Origin: Halopiger djelfimassiliensis | Lineage (GTDB): Archaea; Halobacteriota; Halobacteria; Halobacteriales; Natrialbaceae | Assembly (NCBI RefSeq): GCF_000455365.1 | Contig: NZ_HG315685.1 | Location: forward strand, 991,853-1,055,852 | Length of the DNA stretch: 64,000 nucleotides | Direction of reading: 5' to 3' | Shown here: piece after piece, positions 4,234 to 59,704 of the stretch | Layout: every line of letters starts with the position of its first letter | How positions within the stretch are numbered: position 1 is the stretch's first letter | The notes under the pieces: model-generated | Seen by the model: only the letters and a program-made list of their open reading frames with translations | The model's database searches: none | What the model was told of the DNA's origin: nothing | Program-made: the position numbers and the translations under genes

Positions 4234-5280
4234 GTGGTCACGACGACCGTCACCACGACGTTCCACAACCCATCCCGCGACCGCCGCAGGGAGTGGCAAC
4301 GCGCCACCCACTTGTACCGCGACACCAAGCAATTCTGCATCAATGGGTGGGAATCCAACAGGTTTGGGATGAGCGTGACCACGGCCAGCATCGATAATCC
4401 ACTCTACTCAGCCATCCAGAACCAGGCCATCCGCGAAGCCAAGTCTGACTACAAGAAGGACGGCATCGTGGAATACCACGCCAGCCAGCCGTTCGCGGTC
4501 AACAACCAGAACTGGGAGATTGACCGCACCGAGAACGGTTCCGTTGTCGTTGGGTTCCCCTGTATCTCGGGTTGGTGGTACACGCCTATCGACGTGTACG
4601 ACGACATAGCCGACGACGTAGCCCGGCTCGTGGACGGTGAAGCCGACAAGTCCCGATTGCAGGTGTACCGCCGAGGAGACGACTGGTTCTGTACGTTCAC
4701 CGTCGAGTACGACGCCGAGACAGGCGAGGAGACGGCAATCGGCGTGGACATCGGCCACAATCACTTGCTTGCCGCCGACGCCGAAATGGGCGAGTCGATG
4801 CTGGTGTCCGGTCGTGAGGCGAAATACGTCCGCCGCAAATATCGTTCCCTACGCGAGTCGCTTCAAGAAGCGGGTGCGCTTCGCGCACGGAACCGCGTGG
4901 GTAACAAAGAGGAGCGCCGGATTCGCGATCTCAACCACAAAGCCTCCCGTCGCCTCATCGACTGGGCCAAACAGTTCGAGAATCCCGTGGTAAAAATCGA
5001 GGACTTGGAAGGTATCAGAGAGGGAAGCGACTGGCGTGGCGTTCACTCGTGGCACTTCCATCAGTTGCAGGAGTTCATCGTCTACAAGGCCGAGCAAGCC
5101 GGGATTCGCGTCGAACAAGTTGACCCGTTCGAGACGAGTCAACGCTGTTCGGCCTGCGGTGCTGAAGGGTCGCGTGACGGCGACTACTTCTCGTGTTCCG
5201 ACTGCGACCGTGGCCGCCACGCCGACCTGAACGCCGCCGAGAACATCCGTCAACGGGAGGGAGAACCATGCACGGCGTAG
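4234..5280 (+). CDS. tnpB: RNA-guided endonuclease TnpB family protein
   Basis: A 348-residue TnpB. Known TnpB proteins are RuvC-like nucleases guided by an RNA from the element's right end. All three catalytic acids are visible: Asp172 in [11 protein letters not shown], Glu256 in VKIEDLEGI, and Asp331 in [11 protein letters not shown] four-Cys zinc ribbon (CSAC...CSDC) lies between the last two. The start is GTG at 4234, giving [14 protein letters not shown], the usual opening for haloarchaeal members. The reading frame is intact, so the protein may be active. It lies inside the hairpin-bounded element with no tnpA partner. Confidence 0.9.
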
Positions 5281-5520
5281 CACTTCGGGTGCCGCGACCC
5301 GTGCGGCCTCGTGGACTGAACACTCCACCGTCTGCTTCGCAGACGCCCGGCGTGACCGGGGAGGAAGGCCGCTTTGACCCGGCTGTACGCGCTGAAAAGC
5401 ACGTCCGGGGTCGTAACCGGACGGCGACCGCTGACGCGGGACGCGAAAGCGTACTTCACCGCCGAGGAAACGCGCAACCTGAATACCCCCTTCGGGGAAT
5501 CCCACCCCTTTAGGGGTGGG
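5281..5520 (+). ncRNA. Putative omega (re)RNA of the tnpB element
   Basis: The 240 bp between the tnpB stop and the right terminal hairpin hold no reading frame of their own and are rich in short stems (for example CTTCGGG loops). In characterised TnpB systems the guide RNA is transcribed from this place, overlaps the tnpB 3' end and ends with a guide copied from the flank beyond the element. The guide would then start just after 5520. Assigned by position, not by a folded structure. Confidence 0.4.
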
Positions 5521-5557
5521 AGGAGGTCAAGAAACCGAAAGCGAAACCGAGCCGAAG

Positions 5558-6814
5558 TCAGGGGAACGTGCCGGCTTCCTCGGCAGCGTCCGCGACTCGC
5601 TGGATCGCCACGACGTAGGCCGCAGTCCGCGGGTTCGAGAGGTCGTGCTCCTCGTAGGTCTCGACGAGTGCGTCGAAGGCATCGACGATGATCCCCTCGA
5701 GTTCCTCGTTGACCTTCTCCTCGGACCAGTAGAACCGCTGGCGGTTCTGGACCCACTCGAAGTAACTGACCGTCACCCCGCCGGCGTTGGCCAGAATGTC
5801 GGGGACGACGAAGACATCCGAGTCCTCGAGGACCCTGTCTGCCTCGGGGGTCAGCGGGCCGTTGGCGGCTTCGGAGATGACGTCCGCTTTCACGTCCTCG
5901 GCGAGGTCGCCGTCGATCGCGTTCTCGAGCGCCGCCGGAATCAGCAGGTCGACGTCCATCGTGAGGACGTCCGCGTTCGTGATCTCTTCCGTACTTTCCT
6001 CGTATCCGACGACGCTTCCCGTCTCGTTTTTGTGTGCTTTGGCTTCGACCGGATCGAACCCGTCCGGGTTGTAGATCCCGCCGCTCGAGTCGCTGGCGGC
6101 GACGACGGTCGCACCCATCTCGTCGATCAGTTTCGCGGCGATCCAGCCGGCGTTGCCGTAACCCTGGACGGCGACGGTCGCCCCGTCGAGGTCCTTCCCG
6201 AGGTAGTCAAACGCCTCACGGGCCGCGATGACCGTCGACCGACCGGTCGCCTCGACGCGGCCCGCACTGCCGCCGCTGGCGATGTTCTTCCCGGTGATGA
6301 CTCCGGGTTCGGTAGTGTTCTCGAGCGTTTCGTAGGTGTCTTTGATCCAGTTCATCTCCCGCTGGCCCGTGTTCACGTCGGGCGCGGGGATGTCCCGGTC
6401 TTCGCCGATCAGAGGCCTGAGTTCCGTCGCGAACGCGCGGGTGATCCGCTCGAGTTCGGCCGTCGAGTACTCGTCGGGATCGATGACGATGCCGCCTTTG
6501 CCGCCGCCGTAGGGAATGCCGACGGTCGCACATTTGTACACCATCCATCCGGACAGCGCTTTCACTTCGTCGCGAGTGACGCCCGGATGGTACCGGATTC
6601 CCCCTTTGTAGGGGCCGCGATCGCCGTTGAACTGCGACCGGAACGCTTTGAACCGCCCGAGGGAGCCGTCGTCGAGTTCGACCGTGAGGTTCGTCTCGAG
6701 CACCCGTTCGGGGTGTTTGAGCCGTTCGATCACGTCGTCCCCGATCTCGAGGTGAGCGGCGGCTTCGTCGATCTGTGACTGGAGACTTTCGAATGGATTC
6801 GCGCCCTCACTCAT
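5558..6814 (-). CDS. gdhA: Glutamate dehydrogenase (Glu/Leu/Phe/Val dehydrogenase family)
   Basis: A 418-residue cytoplasmic enzyme, of normal family length, that interconverts glutamate and 2-oxoglutarate plus ammonia using NAD(P). The dimerisation/substrate domain holds [14 protein letters not shown] and the Lys-rich [27 protein letters not shown] follows. The Rossmann part shows [17 protein letters not shown] and [15 protein letters not shown], and the C-terminus [13 protein letters not shown] and [12 protein letters not shown]. The start ATG at 6814 is preceded by an AT-rich stretch. A paralogue lies at 10259-11536 on the other side of the origin. The cofactor preference is not readable with certainty. 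The symbol is a family-level choice. Confidence 0.92.
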
Positions 6815-6897
6815 ACCGACTTCTTTACTCGACTGGAAAATAAACCTAGTGAATGTGTGTCATTTCACCAACTACTTTTCGGGATAGTGACGCTCGG

Positions 6898-7806
6898 TTA
6901 GCCACCGCTACCGCTTCCCTCATCACCGGATGCGCCACGGTTGTCAGCGGCGGCGGCACGCGAACGGATCCGTTCGGCCTGCGCGATCAACGGCGCGTCG
7001 ATCATCTCGCCGTCGACTTCGAAGACGCCCGCCCCCTCGGCCTCGCGTCTGGCCGCGAGAACCCTGTCGGCCCACTCGAGTTCCTCGTCCGACGGCGTGA
7101 ACGCATCGTTGATCGGGCCGACCTGTGCGGGATGGATCGCCAGTTTGCCGTCGTACCCGAGCTGGACGGAAAACGCGGCGTCCTCGCGCAGTCGAGAGTC
7201 GTCCTCGAAGTCAGTCACGAGGGTGTCGATAGCCGTGCAGTCGTGGGCTGCCGCCGCGAGGACGACGCGCTCGCGTGCGTACAGGACTTCAGTCCCGTCG
7301 GCGGTCCGGGTTGCGCCGATGTCAGCCGAGAGGTCTTCGGCCCCGAACACGAGCGCGTCCGTCGCGGGAACGGCGGCGATCTCGGGCGCGGCGAGCACGC
7401 CGGCGGCGTTCTCGATTAGCGCGAAGATCGGAAACGAGACGTCGTAGCTCCGGAGTTCGTCCGCAAGCGCCCGCACGTCTTCGGGCGAGTCGACTTTCGG
7501 CCGCATCACGCTATCGAGACGACGATCGGCGTCGGATCCGGCCGTCCTATCGCCGGCCGCGAGCAGCGCCTCGAGATCGGCTTCCAGTTCCGTCGGCGAC
7601 GCGTTGACCCGGACGCAGACTTCACAGTCCGGATCGAAATCGGGGTCGGCGAGAACGGACCGGACTGCCTCGCGCGCATCGGCCGTCCGCTGTGGCGAAA
7701 CGGCATCCTCGAGGTCGAACACGATCACGTCCGCGCCCGACTCGGTTGCCTTCCGACACATCTCGGGGCGATCACCCGGGGTGAACATGACGCTCCTGCG
7801 AACCAT
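6898..7806 (-). CDS. CitE/HpcH-like CoA-ester lyase
   Basis: A 302-residue TIM-barrel protein of the HpcH/HpaI aldolase and citrate-lyase-beta family. Typical marks are RRSVMFTPGDRPEM at the start, VIVFDLEDAVSP (metal-binding Asp and Glu), VCVRVN, the Arg-Pro-Lys segment VMRPKVDSPEDV, and ALIENAAGVLAAPEI. In haloarchaea such proteins serve as (beta-methyl)malyl-CoA lyase or malyl-CoA thioesterase in the methylaspartate/acetate assimilation route. Which of these applies cannot be told here. It is on the same strand as gdh, 83 bp upstream of it, and is the last gene before the origin region. Confidence 0.82.
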   Translation of the reverse strand: MVRRSVMFTPGDRPEMCRKATESGADVIVFDLEDAVSPQRTADAREAVRSVLADPDFDPDCEVCVRVNASPTELEADLEALLAAGDRTAGSDADRRLDSVMRPKVDSPEDVRALADELRSYDVSFPIFALIENAAGVLAAPEIAAVPATDALVFGAEDLSADIGATRTADGTEVLYARERVVLAAAAHDCTAIDTLVTDFEDDSRLREDAAFSVQLGYDGKLAIHPAQVGPINDAFTPSDEELEWADRVLAARREAEGAGVFEVDGEMIDAPLIAQAERIRSRAAAADNRGASGDEGSGSGG

Positions 7807-50355: not shown

Positions 50356-50993
50356 GGGGCCAGGCAACAGTACCCTCGTTCGCTTCAACGAGGAGGCAAA
50401 GGGATTGAAAGGCGCGGAGAACCACGAAGTCATCGTCAAGCCCTCAGAGGCGTTCTTACAGAACTACATCACCCGCGAACACCCAGACCCTGACCAACCC
50501 TGAGGCCCCTTTCTTCACCGTCACACGCGACCACTACGAGGAAGGTGAAGATAACTCGCTTATCCCCTCGTTCTTCCGCCGCCGGCTCCGCCGACTCGTC
50601 GCCGACTCAGACATCCCAGAAGAAAAGGTCAACCCCCACAACTTCCGCCACTCCCGAGTAACACAAATGCGGCTTGAAGGGTACTCTGACCGGCAGATTG
50701 CAGACCACATGAACTGGGGACCAAACAGCGAGCAGTTCGACATCTACGACCATACAGAAGACGAGGACCGTCACGCGGAGATGGCCGAGATGATGGGCCT
50801 CGATGTGGAAGACGCTGACATCCGGGAGCCGATGTTGGACGAGTGCCCCCGCTGCAGCTACACTATCGACGACTGGCTGAACTGGAGCCAGTGCCCCCGG
50901 TGCCAAGCCCAACTGAAGCTCTACCGCGAGCCCGAATGGTTCGAGGCGTACATGGACGTAATGGGCGAGGACAGAGATGACTCTCTGTCCTGA
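50294..50993 (+). pseudogene. Tyrosine integrase, N-terminally deleted and frameshifted, with zinc ribbon
   Basis: The first part (ARLSAIFSLRIKDVRF, catalytic Arg) reads in one frame up to a TGA at 50501-50503. One base off, the frame continues from NPEAPFFTVTRDHY through NPHNFRHSRVTQMRLEGYSDRQIADHMNW (His-x2-Arg) to EQFDIYDH (nucleophile Tyr). A C-terminal zinc ribbon (CPRCSYTI...CPRCQAQL) follows. The N-terminal DNA-binding domain is missing at the junction at about 50303. The single-base shift is at about 50490-50499. It marks the left edge of an integrated element. Confidence 0.85.
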
Positions 50994-51203: not shown

Positions 51204-52082
51204 TTAGACTACGTCGGAGATGCGCGAGTAGTCGATAGCCTGTGTCCGTAGCTCAATACCGTCGTCATACGCGTTGTAGATGTTCTTGTCTATCTTCCCG
51301 CCGTCTCGGCTATCATAGTGCATTTCGTGCCACCAGATGTGCTTCAAGCACTGTTCATCGTTGAGGTCGCCGATACCAGTCGTGACCTCAAACAAGACCT
51401 CGGCGAAGTGGAGGTCATCCAACGCCGGCATCTCCGGGTCTGGATTATCCGGCGACGGATATTCGTTCGGGAAAACGACCACATCAGGAATGACGCGACC
51501 GTTCTCCGTACGGGCACCCGCTGGCGGGTCGCGGATAATCATGTACCGCGGGTCCTCATCCTGATTTAGTCCCCATCGCACTGCTCGGTTGATTACTTCG
51601 TTCAGCCGGGATGCAGGGGACTTGGTGTTTCGAGCGTTCCGCTCGCTCCACAGCATCAGGGTATCGGTATTAGTTGGAACCAGCAGGTGACCGATACTTT
51701 GCCCTTCACCACCCTTCACGTCCATCGCAAAGACCTCTCCAGTATCTTTGAGCCGACCTTTGAAGTCGATACGTTCACTCCCACGCTGGTCGGTGAACGA
51801 GAGGTATCCTTGCTCTTCGGCGGGTTCCAGGAAGACCTCGCGGACAATGTCCTCGTTGTCCGCGCCGTGGGACTGCCGGAAGGTCCCACCGAGTGAGAAG
51901 ACCGCATCCTTGAGTTCGCGTTGGTAGTCGCCGGCGTCGATGTCCCAATCCTCGAATATCTCTGGGTGTTCATTGCCGAGCGACTTGATGAGCTCCTTCA
52001 CCTCGTCCAAAGTCTGTTCGCGTTCGTCGGTACCCAAATCGGTAAACCCGAGTGTATCGGTCCAGGGGTTCTTGTCAGACAC
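51204..52082 (-). CDS. PD-(D/E)XK restriction-endonuclease-like protein
   Basis: A 292-residue soluble protein. A PD-(D/E)XK nuclease core is visible: GTFRQSHGADNE, then RIDFKG (Asp106), and MDVKGG (Asp121, Lys123), followed by a Gln/Ser-rich helix. It is paired with DNA methyltransferase genes on the same strand. The most likely role is restriction endonuclease of a type II system; the recognised site is unknown. A 16-bp palindrome lies 46 bp upstream of its start. The GC content is lower than in the surrounding core genes. Confidence 0.72.
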   Translation of the reverse strand: MSDKNPWTDTLGFTDLGTDEREQTLDEVKELIKSLGNEHPEIFEDWDIDAGDYQRELKDAVFSLGGTFRQSHGADNEDIVREVFLEPAEEQGYLSFTDQRGSERIDFKGRLKDTGEVFAMDVKGGEGQSIGHLLVPTNTDTLMLWSERNARNTKSPASRLNEVINRAVRWGLNQDEDPRYMIIRDPPAGARTENGRVIPDVVVFPNEYPSPDNPDPEMPALDDLHFAEVLFEVTTGIGDLNDEQCLKHIWWHEMHYDSRDGGKIDKNIYNAYDDGIELRTQAIDYSRISDVV

Positions 52083-52127
52083 ATAGAAACCCCTATACTG
52101 CGGCGCGATAATCTATGAATCCGCAAT

Positions 52128-52143
52128 CGCCTATGCATAGGCG
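52128..52143. promoter_or_regulatory. Palindromic operator, copy in front of the nuclease gene
   Basis: A perfect 16-bp palindrome CGCCTATGCATAGGCG, 46 bp upstream of the nuclease ATG. Its 14-bp core recurs exactly at 53766-53779. A shared site in front of the nuclease and the methyltransferase operon suggests one regulator. Confidence 0.75.
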
Positions 52144-52234
52144 TTTAGCTACGTATACAGGGAGCCGTAACGACTTTTCGTAGAAAACCTCCGAATCCTT
52201 TTGGACTGTGCTATCGGGTTGAAAGGGCCGAGCG

Positions 52235-53017
52235 TCAGAACTCAGTTAACGAGCGTTGCTGTAAGGACGCGAGCCGCTCAGAGATAACGTCTCGGAACTC
52301 CTCGTTCAGCTCGTAGCCAATACATCGGCGGTCAAGTTCGAGAGCAGAAGCCGCGGTTGTCCCGCTTCCGAAGAACGGGTCAAGCACTGTATCGCCGGGG
52401 TCCGTCGAGACCTCAACGATGCGGTCGATGAGCGATGTCGGGTAAGGGGCCTTATGGAGTACGTTCTGGCCGACAGTCCCTCGCTTCACCGGGTGCCGCC
52501 ACAGATTACCGAGACGGTGTTCTTCCGCGACAGCAGGGTCTTCGAGGCCATTCTGCCCCTCTTCTTCGCGGAATTTGTGGTCCTTCGACTTGGAGAGGTA
52601 GACAACGTACTCCTTCTTATTCACCACGTTGCGGTCGGTCATGCCGGCGATGGCAGTAGGCTTGTACCAGGTGACCATATCTTGGAGGACGAAACCAACA
52701 TCCTCGGCCCGTTCAGCGATGTGGTACGGAAGGAGTTGGAGGTCGCCACGCTCCATGACGGTATCAATGACCACCCACATCGTTCCGTCATCGCGTAGTA
52801 CATCGTAGCACTCGCTCCAGACGGCCTCCATTCGGTCGTGGTAGTGTTCGTACGACTCGTCGGCCGTCCCGATTTGGTTCTCGTGTCCGTAGTCCTTGAG
52901 GTCCCAGTAGGGTGGTGAGGTGATAACCGACTGTACAGTGCCATCCTCGACCTCAGTCATCTCTTCGCTCGTACTCCAGTGGACTTCGAGCCCGTCGATT
53001 GTATCAAGCTCAACCAT
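52235..53017 (-). CDS. DNA methyltransferase, N4-cytosine type (beta class)
   Basis: A 260-residue SAM-dependent enzyme. The catalytic motif TSPPYW is at residues 33-38, and the SAM-binding motif DPFFGSGTT at 213-221. That order defines the beta class, and SPPY favours N4-cytosine methylation. LWRHPVKRGTV lies between. The size is small but complete for this class. Its ATG directly follows the stop of the upstream methyltransferase-like gene with no gap. With the nuclease it forms a restriction-modification set. Confidence 0.87.
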   Translation of the reverse strand: MVELDTIDGLEVHWSTSEEMTEVEDGTVQSVITSPPYWDLKDYGHENQIGTADESYEHYHDRMEAVWSECYDVLRDDGTMWVVIDTVMERGDLQLLPYHIAERAEDVGFVLQDMVTWYKPTAIAGMTDRNVVNKKEYVVYLSKSKDHKFREEEGQNGLEDPAVAEEHRLGNLWRHPVKRGTVGQNVLHKAPYPTSLIDRIVEVSTDPGDTVLDPFFGSGTTAASALELDRRCIGYELNEEFRDVISERLASLQQRSLTEF

Positions 53018-53749
53018 CTATTCGCTCACCTCCTCACGTAGCGCAGTCGCATCAAGTGACTCAGCGACGCGTTCTTCCTCGGAGATAACATCTTCAATAT
53101 CATCTACCCAGAGTGTATAGACAGTTTCGCCCTCACCGGAACCAACGAGAACGCATCGGCGGAGCGCCTCGCGGAGTGGTATTGCCTCCACCTCGTCGAC
53201 CTCCTGATTATCGGTCTGCGTGCGGTCTTCATCTAGCCAGACGTTGCCCGGGTCCTTGCCGTCTGGGTTGTATCGGCGGACCTTGGTGTCGTGGTAGGCG
53301 CTGTTACCTTCCTCGCGTTCGCCACCCCACTCGTTGCCCTCGTATACGTGCGCCACGCGAATATCGTCCTTGTGGAACTGATACTCCCGTTTGTCTTTTA
53401 CGAAGAACAGGATTTCGTCATATGCTGATTCCATATCGCCGCCACGGTCTTCCCACCGGTGGACTGTTATCGTATTCTTCAGGGTGAGCCCCGATTCTTC
53501 TCTAGCGTAATCAGCTACTGCCATTGCAACAGGCCACATACGCCCATCTCGGTACGCGTTCGGTGCGACGACCCACAGCGTCTCGGTTGGGTCCATACGC
53601 TCGTAGATAGCGTTCCAAACCCCTTCCGTCGCATTGAGGACATCTTCCTGGGTGTCGGCATCCGACACTACCCTTCCAAGGTCAACGAGGTACATCTGAT
53701 TGCTCTCTCGTTTACGACTTGGGGAACTTGACTGTTGCACCATCTTCAT
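53018..53749 (-). CDS. Methyltransferase-like partner lacking catalytic motifs
   Basis: A 243-residue protein that has the general look of the beta-class methyltransferases (LWVVAPNAYRDGRMWPVAMAVADYAREESGLTLKNTITVHRWE, then EILFFVKDKREYQFHKDDIRV, and NVWLDE). It shows neither a clear SPPY nor an FxGxG motif. It may be a catalytically inactive subunit that completes target recognition for the adjoining enzyme. Its stop abuts the ATG of the active gene. The start at 53749 lies 17 bp from the palindrome. Confidence 0.65.
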   Translation of the reverse strand: MKMVQQSSSPSRKRESNQMYLVDLGRVVSDADTQEDVLNATEGVWNAIYERMDPTETLWVVAPNAYRDGRMWPVAMAVADYAREESGLTLKNTITVHRWEDRGGDMESAYDEILFFVKDKREYQFHKDDIRVAHVYEGNEWGGEREEGNSAYHDTKVRRYNPDGKDPGNVWLDEDRTQTDNQEVDEVEAIPLREALRRCVLVGSGEGETVYTLWVDDIEDVISEEERVAESLDATALREEVSE

Positions 53750-53765
53750 CGATAGGTAGGTGTTC

Positions 53766-53779
53766 GCCTATGCATAGGC
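53766..53779. promoter_or_regulatory. Palindromic operator, copy between methyltransferase operon and regulator
   Basis: A perfect 14-bp palindrome GCCTATGCATAGGC, 17 bp upstream of the methyltransferase operon start and 50 bp upstream of the divergent wHTH gene. A further half-copy (GGTATGCATCGC) follows at 53785-53796. It probably controls both directions. Confidence 0.75.
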
Positions 53780-53828
53780 ATTCGGGTATGCATCGCTTAT
53801 CAACGACCCATGCAAACCCCAGGACGAG

Positions 53829-54065
53829 ATGGGGCTAACGCTGACTGATGCGAAGCGCAGGATACTCGCTCTACTTGAGGAAGAGCCCCGCCACGGCTAC
53901 GCACTCGCCAAAGACCTCGGGAAACAAGGTCCTACGGTGTACGAACATCTACAGGAACTAGAAGAGGCAGGGTATGTCGAAGGCGAGCAGGATGGCCGGC
54001 GGAAGGTGTACTCGCTCACCGAGCGCGGCAGGCTCACTCTACAAGCCGAACGCGCCGGTGAGTGA
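53829..54065 (+). CDS. PadR-like winged-helix regulator of the restriction element
   Basis: A 78-residue wHTH protein: LTDAKRRILALLEEEPRHGYALAKDLGKQGPTVYEHLQELEEAGYVEGEQDGRRKVYSLTERG (each helix in order). It is divergent from the methyltransferase operon with the palindrome between them. This suggests a controller protein that times methyltransferase and nuclease expression, as C proteins do in bacterial systems. Confidence 0.8.
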   Translation: MGLTLTDAKRRILALLEEEPRHGYALAKDLGKQGPTVYEHLQELEEAGYVEGEQDGRRKVYSLTERGRLTLQAERAGE

Positions 54066-54117: not shown

Positions 54118-55101
54118 ATGGGTGTTGAGCTTGCGTATCTGGAGAAGGATGTGTCGCCGCCGGAGCTGGACGAAGCTGGCCTCCAGATACGCAATATCTC
54201 TGCGACTGTGGACATAGAAGGAGAGTTCGACCGAGCGGCTCTGGCGGCAGACCTACCTAATAGTGAGTACGACCCAGAAAGGCACCGTAGCTTGGTTTAC
54301 CGGTCTCCTCATATCGAAGGATTTGTCGTTCTTCTCCCTCCATCGGGCCGCGCTAGCCTTGCTGGTGCGCAGTCCCGAGAAGACATCACCGAGGGAGTGG
54401 AAGATTTCATGTCGGAGCTATCTGCGATTGGGATTGAACGGGAATACGGAGATATTGAGGTCGAGAACATCGTTGCTACAGCCGACCTCGGCCACACTCT
54501 CAATTTATCCCAAGCAACCGTAACACTGGGGCTGGAATCAACTGAATACGAGCCCGAGCAGTTCCCCGGACTCATATATCGGTCTCCTAATGGGTCAGTG
54601 AATCTGCTCTACTCAACTGGGAAGGTAGTCATCACCAAGACGCGAACGTATAGTGAGGTACTGGCTGCATATGAGGACCTTCAGAACGAGATGGATATAG
54701 TCCCGGGCGGATTCGAACCGCGGTCACTCCGCTTCGCTTCGTTCCCTGATTCGAATCCGCTGGACATATTTGCCGCTCGCGGTGTTGCTCGCGGCAGAAG
54801 TAGTCCCGGGCGGATTCGAACCGCCGTCATGGGCTCCAAAGGCCCATATGATTGGCCACTACACCACGGGACTCCTCGTTTCACCCGTCCCATGTACCTC
54901 GCAAATCCTGCGGATTTGCTCACCACTACGGACCGCGTTCGATCGATAGAGCGTCACCGCACAATAGTGTTACTTTTCGTCTCGAGGCGACGGCGCGGTT
55001 TTGCTTTCCGGGTGGCGATTCGAACGGACTCCGAGCCCGCTACTCCGTTCGCGGGTCGTCCCGCAATTCGAAGAGGCGCGTTCCCTCGTGAACGAACGTG
55101 A
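54118..55101 (+). CDS. TATA-box binding protein, C-terminal end altered by attachment site
   Basis: Residues 20-195 are a TBP with both repeats: LQIRNISATVDIEGEFD to LAGAQSREDITEGVEDFM, and VENIVATADLGHTLNL, EYEPEQFPGLIYRSPNGSVNLLYSTGKVVITKTRTYSEV. It is an extra, divergent TBP. The native end appears to be near residue 194 (about 54699). Beyond this the frame runs through the duplicated tRNA end and antisense across the tRNA-Gln gene to 55101, an unnatural tail of about 130 residues. The gene is carried by the element. Confidence 0.75.
   Translation: MGVELAYLEKDVSPPELDEAGLQIRNISATVDIEGEFDRAALAADLPNSEYDPERHRSLVYRSPHIEGFVVLLPPSGRASLAGAQSREDITEGVEDFMSELSAIGIEREYGDIEVENIVATADLGHTLNLSQATVTLGLESTEYEPEQFPGLIYRSPNGSVNLLYSTGKVVITKTRTYSEVLAAYEDLQNEMDIVPGGFEPRSLRFASFPDSNPLDIFAARGVARGRSSPGRIRTAVMGSKGPYDWPLHHGTPRFTRPMYLANPADLLTTTDRVRSIERHRTIVLLFVSRRRRGFAFRVAIRTDSEPATPFAGRPAIRRGAFPRERT
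54698..54721. repeat. Duplicate of tRNA-Gln 3' end (attachment site)
   Basis: A perfect 24-bp copy of 54801-54824, the 3' end of tRNA-Gln with its T-arm; with one mismatch the match extends to 29 bp. It lies in the same orientation, 103 bp from the tRNA. It is the trace of site-specific integration into the tRNA gene. Confidence 0.8.
54801..54873 (-). tRNA. tRNA-Gln (anticodon TTG)
   Basis: A complete cloverleaf on the minus strand. The acceptor stem is AGTCCCG/CGGGACT with discriminator A. The anticodon arm is TGGGC-CTTTGGA-GCCCA, giving anticodon TTG. The T-arm is GGCGG-TTCGAAT-CCGCC. No CCA is encoded. It is intact despite the adjoining integration. Confidence 0.95.
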
Positions 55102-55384: not shown

Positions 55385-58300
55385 ATGAGTTCTGGCAAGT
55401 CGAAAGCGATTGCGATACTGTTCGCCGTACTGCTGGCGACATCGACGGTCGCCATGCCGGTACTGGCGAGCGGCCCGGCTCGGAACACGAGTCACACAGC
55501 GGAGTTTCCGGAGGGAACCGACGGCGTTCCTCCGAACTCTGATGGGACTGCAACCATCGCTGGCGAGCAAAACGACACGAGGTATACGCCACCAGACTTC
55601 GGGAACGACACGACGATCGAGCGCATACTGAACGCGACCGAACGCTTCGGCGACCTCGAGATCGAAAACGACACCGCCGCCATCGCCACCGTAAACGAGA
55701 CCCTCGAAGCGATCAACGTCTCCCTGCGGAACTACCGGCAACTCGACTACGCGGATTCCCAGGCCGTGCTCGATCACCAGGCCGAAGCACAGCGATCGCT
55801 CGCGGAACTGAAAGCCGAAGTCGACGGTGACGACGAGGCGATCGTCGACGAGATCAGCCGCGAATTGTACGCGGCGAGTAATATGACCGCGAACTTCGCC
55901 GTCGCCGACGCCGCCGGGATGGTCCTCGCCAACAACGAGGCCCTGCGAGCGGAGGAACGGCGCGCGAAAGCGGTCGCCGAACTGACGATGGCGTACCGCG
56001 AACTCGATCGGGCCAACGCCACCGTCTCGAACGGATCAGTCGGTCCGACGGACCGCGCTACGGCAGTCGAATACCTCGAAAGCGCCTGGATACACGCTCA
56101 AGGGACGCTCGACGAGGTCGAAGCCACGATCGAACCGACGCTGTCGCTGTCGCACGGCCAACCGTTTGAACGAAACGGGACCGTCCGGGTGCCGATCGAG
56201 GCGACGCTCTCTGACCTCCGCCCGTACGCGTATGAGAACGCGACGGTGACCGTCGACGGTGGCGGGACCGCCACGCTGTCGTTCGTCTCCGAGGAGTGGG
56301 CAAACTCCTCGGCGACCGGCATGACGCCCGTCGATCTCGGGCCTGACACGGAGAACGCGACCGTCACCGTGACCGCGACGCCCGAACACGACGCCGACCG
56401 GACCGTCACGGCGACTCACGAGGTCGCTATCACTGAGGGGGACGTCCACTGGGAGCGGCCCGCTCCCGACGAGTACCGCGAGGTCGAGGTCACGGACAAC
56501 TCCTCGGGCGTCTCGGTCAACACCGGAGGGAACGGCCTCCACGAAACCGACGTCTCGATCACCGACGAGACGCCGACGACCGACGACGACTACCGCGCCG
56601 GCCCGATGGTCCGCGTCGAGAACTCGACGCCGATCGACGAGGCGACCATCGAGATTCCCCTCGACGAGGACGCCCTCGAGCGCGAGGGCAACCTCTCGAT
56701 CGTGACCTGGGATCCCCGGAGCGACGAGCCCTGGACGCCGGTCGACACCGAGATCGACCGCGAGGCCGGCACGGCGACCGCCGAGGTCGACCACTTCTCC
56801 TTTTTCTCGGTGTTCTGGATCGAGGACTGGGAGGACCAGTACAGCGAGACGATCACGCTCGAGGACGACGAGATCGGCGGCGACAACGGCACCGAGATCG
56901 AGCTTGCGGACTTCGTGTTCGTGATCGACGAGAGCGGCAGCATGAGCGGGTCGCCGAGCCACTACGCCGAACTGGCGGCCAAGCGCTTCGTCGGCGCGCT
57001 CACCGACGACGAACGCGCCGGACTCGTCGGCTACTCTTCGGGCGCGAGCCTCGATCACTCCCTGACGACCGATCACGACGCGCTCAACAGCAGCCTCTCG
57101 GGACTGTCCGCCGACGGGGGAACCGACACCGAATCCGGGCTTCAGGTCGGCCTCGATCACCTCGAGTCCGAAAGCTGGGAGAACCGCTCGAAGGTGATGC
57201 TCCTGCTGTCGGACGGCAAGTCAAACGACGACTCGCATCCGCGATCGGTCGCCGAGGACGCCGCCGACGCGGGCGTCGAGATCAGCACGATCGGCCTCGG
57301 CAACGACATCGACGAGGACGAACTCCGGGACATCGCCGGAACGACCGGCGGCGATTTCTATCACGTCGAGAACGAGGAGGACCTCCCGGACGCCTTCGAG
57401 CGGGTGGCCGAGAACCAAACCGGGGTCGATCTGACCGACACGAACGGCGACGGCATCCCCGACCGGGTCGCCGAGATGGACCTGCGGATGCCGACCGGCG
57501 GTCCCGGCGTCGTCGGCGAGCCGCTGAACCTCGACCCGATCGCGCTCGACACCAGCGGCGACGGCATCCGCGACAACGAAACCGTCGACATCACCTACCG
57601 CGTCTTCGAGGACAACAACGAGACGAAACTTCAGGCGTCGGTCACGCACGCTGCCCACCACCCCGCTCGGATCGACACGACCGGCGACGGGTTGACCGAC
57701 GCCGAACAGCAGACCGGATGGGAGATCGAGATCGTCGACGATCCACACGAGGCCCAGGATCTCGAGGAGGTAGTCACCGATCCGGACGTCGACGGGGATC
57801 CGGCGACGTACTTTTCGTCACGAAGCGTCGCCGCCAACCCGCTGGTCGACGACACGGACGGGGACGACCTCACCGATCTCGAGGAACGGAACCTCGGCAC
57901 CGATCCCGACAAGCGGGATACCACCGGCGATGCCATTACCGACGCCGAAGCGTTCGACGACCCCGAGGAGGATCCGACCGTCTTCTCGACGAGTCCCCCG
58001 GACGTAACGCTCGTAGACTACCGGCGCTGGTCCGAGCCCCCAGACATCGACGTGGACCTCAGTCGGGATCCCGTCGACATCGAGGGTCCCTCCTGGAACT
58101 TCCAGTATCAAGTCTCGATCCACGATCCGGGCGGCGTCGCCGCATACGAACTCACCCGCGGGGACAGGACGGTCGGCAAAGAGACGCTGGAACACGAGCC
58201 GACCACAGTCGCGCGCACCGAAACCCTCGAGTCGATCACCGAAGGCGTGTTCACCACCTGGCGGGGCTCACAGACCTCGGCCGAAGCGACCGACGCCTAC

Positions 58301-59704
58301 GGAAACAGCGGCGGCGAACGCATCCACAGCGAATCCTCGTTCTACGGCGAGGTGATCGGCACGAACGTCGACCCCTACTCCGGCGGCGTCCTCTCCGGGT
58401 TCACCCACAGCGCCGCCGAACTGCCCGAACTGCTCGTGACGATCGGCAGAGCTCTCTGGGACGATCCCAAATCGGCCGGCGAGACGTTCGTCGGCTTCGT
58501 CGACGAGATCGATCAGGAAACCCTCGAGCAGGCGCTGCCGATGATCATCGAGTCGACCAAGGAACAACAGCGACTCGACAACCCTCACACGGAGGGAACC
58601 GACGACTACGAGCAGTACGCTCAGGGCTGGTACGAAGGGTATACGTTGCACTTCCTTGCGTCGATGGCCTACGGCGGCACGGTCACCAAGGGAGCCACCA
58701 AAGGCGCAAACGTCGGCAAGCGCGTCGGCAAAGTCGTCGACGACGTCCCGGCCTCCCGGGCGCTGCGGGCCGACGGGAGCGGACTGCGTTCGGCGCTGAT
58801 TTCCCATCGACTTGCCGAAGGGATCGACGACATCGGTGCAAAGTTCCGGACCGCCGGAAGAAATGCACAGGCGGCACGCATCAGCAATATCGACGGTCGC
58901 ATCCTTGACTCACTCAGTTCGTCGCAAAAGGACCAACTCTCGCGGTATCTGGCCGAAGGCGGTGAGGATGCAGTTACGACAGTCAATCGTCTCGAAAAGA
59001 ATGAGGTGATAAAATTAGTTAATATTGCAGAAGATACCTCCGCTCGAGAGGTCGGGGATTTCCTCAACTACCCACGTAACCATCGACTCGTATCTGATCT
59101 TAACGGCGAATTGACCCACGTTATGCAACTCCCGCGGGCAGAACAGAGAGCATTGCACACTCTCGCTTACGAGAGTGATCGCCTCCGTCATATTGACGAT
59201 CTATCCACAAAGGAAGTCGTGCAACTCTCCGAAAACGGAGCGACGCTCCGCGAGATACAGGTGATTGCAAAAAGTCCTGCACATGACGGTTCTATCCGTT
59301 GGATGGAACGGAGTGACAGGCAACATGCCTTCCAACGCCACGTCCGTGGAGAGGAGATCGGGAGTAAGGACCAGACGACACTCTTTCCGGCAGGTCAGAC
59401 CGTTGATTCACCTATCGGATCGGCCACGATGCCCCCACGTATGACCGATAATAGCGTCGCCTTGCGCTCAGAGATCGAAGATATCGCGTACACAGCGGTC
59501 AAACACAGCGATGTTGATGATGGCTCGAAAATCATCTCGAGCCGGATTTCACGGCACGGAATCGAGAGTGTTGAAATTAATATCCAAGGTGGGAAGATGG
59601 AAAGCGTCTATCCACAGTCAGGACAAGCGGTACGTAAGTTTAAAAACGGCCAGTGGTGGCGATGGGACCCCGAAACGAACGATTTCGTAAGCTGGGAACC
59701 CTAA
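55385..59704 (+). CDS. Secreted VWA-domain protein with C-terminal toxin-like tip
   Basis: A 1439-residue protein. A Sec-type signal (residues 1-30) is followed by an N-terminal helical/Ig-like part. A VWA domain spans about 508-690 with the metal site DESGS (about 514-518). Several Asp-rich calcium-binding repeats follow (DTNGDGIPD, DTSGDGIRD, DTTGDGLTD, DTDGDDLTD), to about residue 870. A linker and a hydrophobic stretch (YTLHFLASMAYGGTVTKGATKG) come near 1085. From about residue 1158 the DNA is clearly more AT-rich. The tip contains HAFQRH (about 1313-1318) and ISRHGIESVEINIQGGK. It is most likely a polymorphic toxin whose tip is an RNase or similar; the activity is not shown. Confidence 0.72.
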   Translation: MSSGKSKAIAILFAVLLATSTVAMPVLASGPARNTSHTAEFPEGTDGVPPNSDGTATIAGEQNDTRYTPPDFGNDTTIERILNATERFGDLEIENDTAAIATVNETLEAINVSLRNYRQLDYADSQAVLDHQAEAQRSLAELKAEVDGDDEAIVDEISRELYAASNMTANFAVADAAGMVLANNEALRAEERRAKAVAELTMAYRELDRANATVSNGSVGPTDRATAVEYLESAWIHAQGTLDEVEATIEPTLSLSHGQPFERNGTVRVPIEATLSDLRPYAYENATVTVDGGGTATLSFVSEEWANSSATGMTPVDLGPDTENATVTVTATPEHDADRTVTATHEVAITEGDVHWERPAPDEYREVEVTDNSSGVSVNTGGNGLHETDVSITDETPTTDDDYRAGPMVRVENSTPIDEATIEIPLDEDALEREGNLSIVTWDPRSDEPWTPVDTEIDREAGTATAEVDHFSFFSVFWIEDWEDQYSETITLEDDEIGGDNGTEIELADFVFVIDESGSMSGSPSHYAELAAKRFVGALTDDERAGLVGYSSGASLDHSLTTDHDALNSSLSGLSADGGTDTESGLQVGLDHLESESWENRSKVMLLLSDGKSNDDSHPRSVAEDAADAGVEISTIGLGNDIDEDELRDIAGTTGGDFYHVENEEDLPDAFERVAENQTGVDLTDTNGDGIPDRVAEMDLRMPTGGPGVVGEPLNLDPIALDTSGDGIRDNETVDITYRVFEDNNETKLQASVTHAAHHPARIDTTGDGLTDAEQQTGWEIEIVDDPHEAQDLEEVVTDPDVDGDPATYFSSRSVAANPLVDDTDGDDLTDLEERNLGTDPDKRDTTGDAITDAEAFDDPEEDPTVFSTSPPDVTLVDYRRWSEPPDIDVDLSRDPVDIEGPSWNFQYQVSIHDPGGVAAYELTRGDRTVGKETLEHEPTTVARTETLESITEGVFTTWRGSQTSAEATDAYGNSGGERIHSESSFYGEVIGTNVDPYSGGVLSGFTHSAAELPELLVTIGRALWDDPKSAGETFVGFVDEIDQETLEQALPMIIESTKEQQRLDNPHTEGTDDYEQYAQGWYEGYTLHFLASMAYGGTVTKGATKGANVGKRVGKVVDDVPASRALRADGSGLRSALISHRLAEGIDDIGAKFRTAGRNAQAARISNIDGRILDSLSSSQKDQLSRYLAEGGEDAVTTVNRLEKNEVIKLVNIAEDTSAREVGDFLNYPRNHRLVSDLNGELTHVMQLPRAEQRALHTLAYESDRLRHIDDLSTKEVVQLSENGATLREIQVIAKSPAHDGSIRWMERSDRQHAFQRHVRGEEIGSKDQTTLFPAGQTVDSPIGSATMPPRMTDNSVALRSEIEDIAYTAVKHSDVDDGSKIISSRISRHGIESVEINIQGGKMESVYPQSGQAVRKFKNGQWWRWDPETNDFVSWEP

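Follow-up and report, generated by a model that had tools for sequence, protein, structure and literature searches.

The window, meaning the whole 64-kb stretch of DNA that was analyzed, contains a restriction-modification (R-M) module of four genes. R, M2, and M1 lie on the minus strand and a small winged helix-turn-helix (wHTH) gene lies on the plus strand, the same layout of open reading frames that the original prediction had described. The genes are as follows.

51204-52082, minus strand: R, probable restriction endonuclease, with the PD-(D/E)XK-like motif ERIDFKG-x-FAMDVKGGEGQS
52235-53017, minus strand: M2, amino-methyltransferase (PF01555, 2e-48), with the motifs TSPPYW and DPFFGSGTT
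53018-53749, minus strand: M1, degenerate beta-class methyltransferase subunit or pseudo-methyltransferase (PF01555, 6.7e-10; alignment to M2)
53829-54065, plus strand: putative wHTH controller gene, 78 amino acids, an open reading frame divergent from M1-M2-R (PF03551)

The product of the wHTH gene scored 52.7 bits against the PadR family (PF03551), above the curated cut-off of 27, and it also exceeded the Pfam cut-offs of TrmB and ArsR (HTH_5). NCBIfam matches were likewise to PadR/TrmB/ArsR-type winged helices, and an AlphaFold2 model (pLDDT 90), which comprised a winged helix followed by a short C-terminal helix at residues 65 to 77, matched MarR/ArsR folds. PadR is the best Pfam name for the protein, and to that extent its earlier description as PadR-like stands, but the label is loosened by the fact that this is a single wHTH of only 78 residues, with one short C-terminal helix where PadR proteins have a dimerization region, that passes the TrmB and ArsR cut-offs too. 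The window protein contains no cysteine. Comparison with close relatives gave a dN/dS of 0.07 to 0.21 for the wHTH gene, and the other module genes gave 0.04 to 0.12 (about 0.1 for M1). On these sequence comparisons, we conclude that the wHTH gene is under purifying selection.

Alignment of the two methyltransferase-like proteins indicated that M1 is without the TSPPY and DPFxGSGTT motifs that are present in M2. Because M1 is a degenerate relative of M2 without these motifs, the pair resembles a heterodimer in which only one subunit is catalytic. In the 14 homologues of R, the ERIDFKG...FAMDVKGGEGQSIG stretch was invariant or nearly invariant, and the invariant residues D106 and D121-x-K123 were in a PD-(D/E)XK-like arrangement. 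A Pfam search with R gave no match, and comparison of its sequence with solved structures gave nothing significant. The best structural neighbors of the AlphaFold model of R (pLDDT 73) were weak, namely, BsmI (Z 6.2), N.BspD6I (Z 5.5), and FokI (Z 4.8), with the highest of these values below the level that the structure-comparison tool treats as clear and with unrelated folds mixed among the neighbors. Foldseek returned no match to the model at an E value of ≤0.001, and PD-(D/E)XK nucleases made up most of its top ten. We conclude that R is a probable nuclease.

A rare palindrome and an array of three boxes

A palindrome had been reported twice in the module, once as a 16-bp version in front of the nuclease gene, and both copies were found. 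The 14-bp form, GCCTATGCATAGGC, was present in exactly two exact copies in the 3.78-Mb genome, both of them inside the R-M module, with no copy at one mismatch and a single further place at two mismatches; the palindrome is not common elsewhere, which was the outcome of the genome-wide count proposed with the original prediction. When up to two mismatches were allowed within the window, only the same two sites were recovered (52129-52142, which extends to the 16-bp CGCCTATGCATAGGCG at 52128-52143, and 53766-53779), whereas shuffled windows averaged 0.03 matches and none of 100 shuffles gave two. The 12-bp core, CCTATGCATAGG, had no other site within one mismatch genome-wide. Moreover, exact copies of the core occurred nine times in 13 module-bearing and 2 outgroup genomes, and all nine were in the module. 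Repeat noise was rejected as the source of the palindrome on the basis of the window shuffles, the genome counts, and the core count in the 15 genomes.

Alignment of the promoters on the palindrome revealed further copies exactly 18 bp to either side, at both promoters. The idea of a palindrome shared by the two gaps holds, but the palindrome is only the strongest of three boxes per promoter. The boxes and the predicted promoter elements are as follows.

52107-52115, minus strand: predicted R TATA, about -33 to -25 relative to the start codon, in a conserved column block
52112-52123, no strand: third box, over the predicted R BRE/TATA, 18 bp downstream of the strong box
52130-52141, no strand: strong box CCTATGCATAGG in the M2/R gap, centered 53 bp upstream of the R start
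52148-52159, no strand: weak box of the R promoter, 18 bp upstream of the strong box
53749-53760, no strand: weak box toward M1, extending as far as the M1 start codon, at an 18-bp step from the strong box
53767-53778, no strand: strong box CCTATGCATAGG in the wHTH/M1 gap, centered 56 bp upstream of the wHTH start and 23 bp upstream of the M1 start
53785-53796, no strand: third box (GGTATGCATCGC) on the wHTH side, over the predicted wHTH BRE, 18 bp from the strong box
53796-53803, plus strand: predicted wHTH TATA (CTTATCAA), -33 to -26 relative to the start codon, in a conserved TTaTCA column block

Conservation of the module and its boxes

Of 392 genomes of the order, 14 contained R, and the six genomes in which a phylum-wide sample contained it were all of that same order; among 391 Halobacteria searched, 16 genomes had M1 relatives. 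Viral contigs contained no R homologues, and the only plasmid to contain one was PL100 of Haloquadratum walsbyi C23. The four-gene module was present in identical order and arrangement at 14 haloarchaeal loci (the window included) from many genera. Conservation of the palindrome in related systems had been named as a check on the original prediction, and when the check was run, every homologous system that retained the wHTH gene also retained boxes in both the wHTH/M1 and the M2/R gap (14 of 14). Matches to the box were 10 to 12 of 12 positions in the wHTH/M1 gap and 8 to 12 of 12 in the M2/R gap, where the strong boxes of three loci (L024, L026, and L028) reached only 8 to 9. Box sequences varied between loci and also within loci. 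Close homologues of the wHTH protein were restricted to genomes with the module or its remains, and they formed one clade (100/99). A decayed module was observed in L038 (6811-7714), with stops in M1, a split wHTH gene, only the end of R, and a retained box matching at 10 of 12 positions.

Four tests of the box spacing were run on 8 diverged representatives, each with 34 offsets and 3,000 shuffles. At 18 bp, the boxes matched on average at 5.5 to 7.0 of 12 positions compared with an expectation of about 3.0, 18 bp was the best of the 34 offsets each time, and none of the 3,000 shuffles reached such a match at any offset in any of the four tests. An artifact of close relatedness was rejected as the explanation of box conservation, as the representatives in the spacing test were diverged.

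The position of the array relative to the genes was also conserved. In 11 of the 14 loci, 53 bp separated the center of the strong box from the R start codon; on the wHTH side, the distance to the start was 50 to 56 bp. Conserved TTATC-type elements were located at about -33 to -25 relative to the start codons of both wHTH and R, and because of their position, both genes look leaderless. At both genes, the strong box ended about 8 to 11 bp upstream of the predicted BRE and the third box lay over it; as the third box overlaps the predicted BRE/TATA, promoter constraint could explain part of its similarity to the other boxes. On the opposite side of the wHTH/M1 gap, the strong box was centered 22 to 26 bp upstream of the M1 start in most loci, which is where the TATA element of a leaderless gene would be.

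Loss of the boxes together with the wHTH gene

One locus, L069 (4559-7638), was found through R alone. Here R (66% identical to that of the window) is divergent from a fusion of M1 and M2 in a single 499-amino-acid open reading frame (54% and 70% identity, respectively). No wHTH gene of group A was found in the L069 genome, the best match being a generic wHTH at an E value of 4e-8. A scan of 14 kb at this locus detected no box above 9 of 12 positions, and none of the sites at 9 of 12 was in the R/M gap. L069 appears to be a natural knockout in which the wHTH gene and the boxes were lost together. In L037, a relative with the methyltransferase only, the wHTH gene, R, and the palindrome were all absent. 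Given L069 and L037, the boxes accompany the wHTH gene and not the methyltransferase or the nuclease.

These loci bear on two other roles for the boxes. The palindrome could be a site that the methyltransferase of the system recognizes or methylates, and the enzyme would then regulate the promoter by methylation or binding; the box is palindromic, and such autoregulation is known in bacteria (PMC3874152; PMC4824078). However, L069 has R, M1, and M2 and neither boxes nor wHTH gene. In addition, the box sequence differs from locus to locus and among the copies of a single locus, and, unlike a restriction site, the boxes are grouped in threes at 18-bp spacing. The palindrome as a methylation site was rejected on the evidence of L069, and we consider the wider explanation highly improbable. 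The second possibility is that the wHTH gene is a passenger and that the boxes are used by a host regulator or in replication or transfer. Such a role is at odds with the absence of other exact cores in 15 genomes and with the retention of wHTH gene and boxes together in 14 loci and their joint loss in one, and we think that there is very little chance of it. The sequence itself shows the genes and the array of boxes, and it shows that the array is conserved, confined to the module, and lost with the wHTH gene. We conclude that the confinement of the boxes to the module, their conservation, and the co-loss support the original proposal of an R-M set run by the wHTH protein through a shared palindrome.

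Predicted control of the three promoters

Archaeal regulator sites located upstream of BRE/TATA activate transcription, and sites located over or downstream of BRE/TATA repress it (PMC4158304; PMC5512572). OxsR, a haloarchaeal single wHTH protein, activates through a motif at -50 to -74 (PMC9426492), a position matched by the boxes of the R promoter, which are centered at -53 and -71. Because of the box positions and the archaeal position rule, we predict that wHTH and R are activated and that M is repressed.

We infer DNA binding by the wHTH protein, its dimerization, the direction and timing of control, and the enzymatic activities of R and M, and we propose the following scheme. A wHTH dimer would bind the palindromic CCTATGCATAGG in the wHTH/M1 and M2/R gaps, together with the weaker copies that flank it at 18 bp. 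At its own gene and at R, the protein would sit upstream of BRE/TATA and activate transcription, and as the same boxes cover the putative M1M2 promoter, binding would also repress the methyltransferase genes. As the controller accumulated, it would turn on R and damp M, and at high levels of wHTH, the BRE-proximal third box would possibly cap the expression of wHTH and R. The predicted outcome is methylation before cutting.

The main rival to activation is that wHTH simply represses all three promoters, its own included, and that the system stays quiet until derepressed, for example on infection or through dilution after transfer, much like RptR or WYL-domain repressors. Bacteria have defense-linked repressors of such a type (PMC12255303). 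In the module, the third box lies across the predicted BRE/TATA of wHTH and R, the boxes cover the putative promoter of M1, and boxes upstream of a BRE could still repress. The strongest box, however, ends about 8 to 11 bp upstream of the predicted BRE at both wHTH and R, a position usual for archaeal activators, and if M were repressed along with R, there would be no protection against premature R; we regard simple autorepression as unlikely. We conclude, with somewhat better than even confidence, that the locus is a mobile four-gene R-M cassette with a dedicated wHTH controller predicted to activate wHTH and R and to repress M1M2.

Relation to known regulators

The helix-turn-helix fold of bacterial C proteins is Xre/lambda-repressor-like, unlike the winged helix found here. 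C proteins activate their own and the R promoters, repress at higher levels, and sometimes repress M (PMC12707154; PMC4824078). Like C proteins of Type II systems, such as C.PvuII and C.Csp231I (PMC12707154; PMC4824078), the wHTH protein is a small dedicated regulator in an R-M locus, and the promoters of the controller and of R are preceded by palindromic boxes that are repeated and differ in strength. The predicted activation of itself and of R is also shared, as is the predicted repression of M with some C proteins, and the wHTH message, like that of many C genes, is putatively leaderless. Whereas C genes adjoin R and are cotranscribed with it, the wHTH gene is divergent from M1 in all 14 loci. 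Moreover, unlike in C systems, the wHTH gene is 1.7 kb from R and R has its own operator copy behind M2, an arrangement that follows from the divergence and the distance, and the operator consists of three boxes at 18-bp steps at archaeal TBP/TFB promoters.

Similarity to archaeal regulators is found in OxsR and other single-domain TrmB/wHTH proteins (PMC9426492; PMC4158304), which likewise consist of a single wHTH without a ligand domain; as with OxsR, the predicted activation would act through a motif that lies upstream of BRE/TATA, at about -50 to -74. OxsR is, however, a genome-wide regulator of oxidative stress with a functional cysteine, whereas the wHTH protein of the window contains no cysteine and the exact sites of the module regulator are confined to its own module. 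RptR, described in 2025 from bacterial Type I R-M islands (PMC12255303), is also a small regulator linked to R-M; near its promoter is a short palindrome repeated three times, and these copies are conserved along with it. It differs in being all-alpha, in having 6-bp sites that form part of 9-bp direct repeats covering the -10 box, in acting by repression only, and in its Type I system. We conclude that RptR is the nearest recent analogue and that it is different in fold, site, and logic.

A PadR or archaeal controller linked to R-M was provisionally without precedent in open papers. A survey of R-M genes in Halobacteria makes no mention of controllers (PMC6471742), and reviews on C proteins describe them in bacteria. 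The wHTH protein probably represents a new controller family, with predicted C-protein-like logic on another fold. How self-killing is avoided when an R-M system enters a new archaeal cell has hardly been studied, and if our reading is true, haloarchaea would have arrived at a convergent solution in the form of a wHTH controller whose operator at TBP/TFB promoters is conserved. The model is compact in that one factor would use the same box array to activate two promoters and repress a third, and the system is directly testable in genetically tractable haloarchaea.

The wider wHTH family and SacI-type systems

A profile search with the wHTH family returned a second group, at E values of 1e-31 to 1e-19, seven members of which form one clade (100/97) that is sister to the wHTH clade of the module. 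Six of the seven genes directly follow a D12-class methyltransferase gene and a SacI-type restriction endonuclease gene (L066, L102, L105, L108, L113, and L114; PF09566 at 1.4e-48 in L066, operon 4949-7334), and at the seventh locus, L106, the endonuclease is only partly retained. The SacI-type operons contain inverted repeats of related sequence in the M-R and R-wHTH gaps (for example, TATCGCATTTTTGCGATA and TGTCGGCTTTAGCCGATA in L114); the repeats common to both gaps are suggestive; taken singly, they were significant in some loci and weak in three of the six. The SacI-type operon is a likely second wHTH-controlled R-M system.

Related wHTH genes also occur in other surroundings. In L067 (5823-7321), L107, L109, and L115, the gene adjoins a nuclease weakly similar to the C-terminal domain of NucS. 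In L068 (7019-8282) and L098 to L101, from several genera, near-identical wHTH genes are found beside a TFB gene and a HalOD1/DUF7504 gene, suggesting a common mobile element. Since other members adjoin NucS-like nucleases or TFB genes, the family overall, as judged from gene neighborhoods, is not exclusive to R-M, and two of its clades are R-M linked throughout. We see about an even chance that haloarchaea evolved a family of single-domain wHTH controllers dedicated to R-M without descent from bacterial C proteins, in at least two unrelated systems (M1/M2/R and the D12 methyltransferase with the SacI-type endonuclease), and that, in the one described here, a three-box operator activates the controller and the nuclease and blocks the M promoter.

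Genomic setting

A 29-bp direct repeat with one mismatch (54698-54726 and 54801-54829) corresponds to the 3′ end of a tRNA-Gln gene (54800-54873), and a C-terminal fragment of an integrase, judged by eye, is located at 50500-50993. Because of the tRNA-Gln 3′-end repeat and the apparent integrase fragment, the R-M module is probably in an integrated element. An extra TATA-binding protein (TBP) gene follows the wHTH gene (54118-54710), and its frame runs into the duplicated end of tRNA-Gln. A TBP gene is also found in L069, directly beyond the end of R, and its product is 54% identical to the TBP of the window. Farther downstream in the window, an open reading frame of 1,439 amino acids (55385-59704) appears by eye to contain a von Willebrand type A region, and its C-terminal tail looks distinct.
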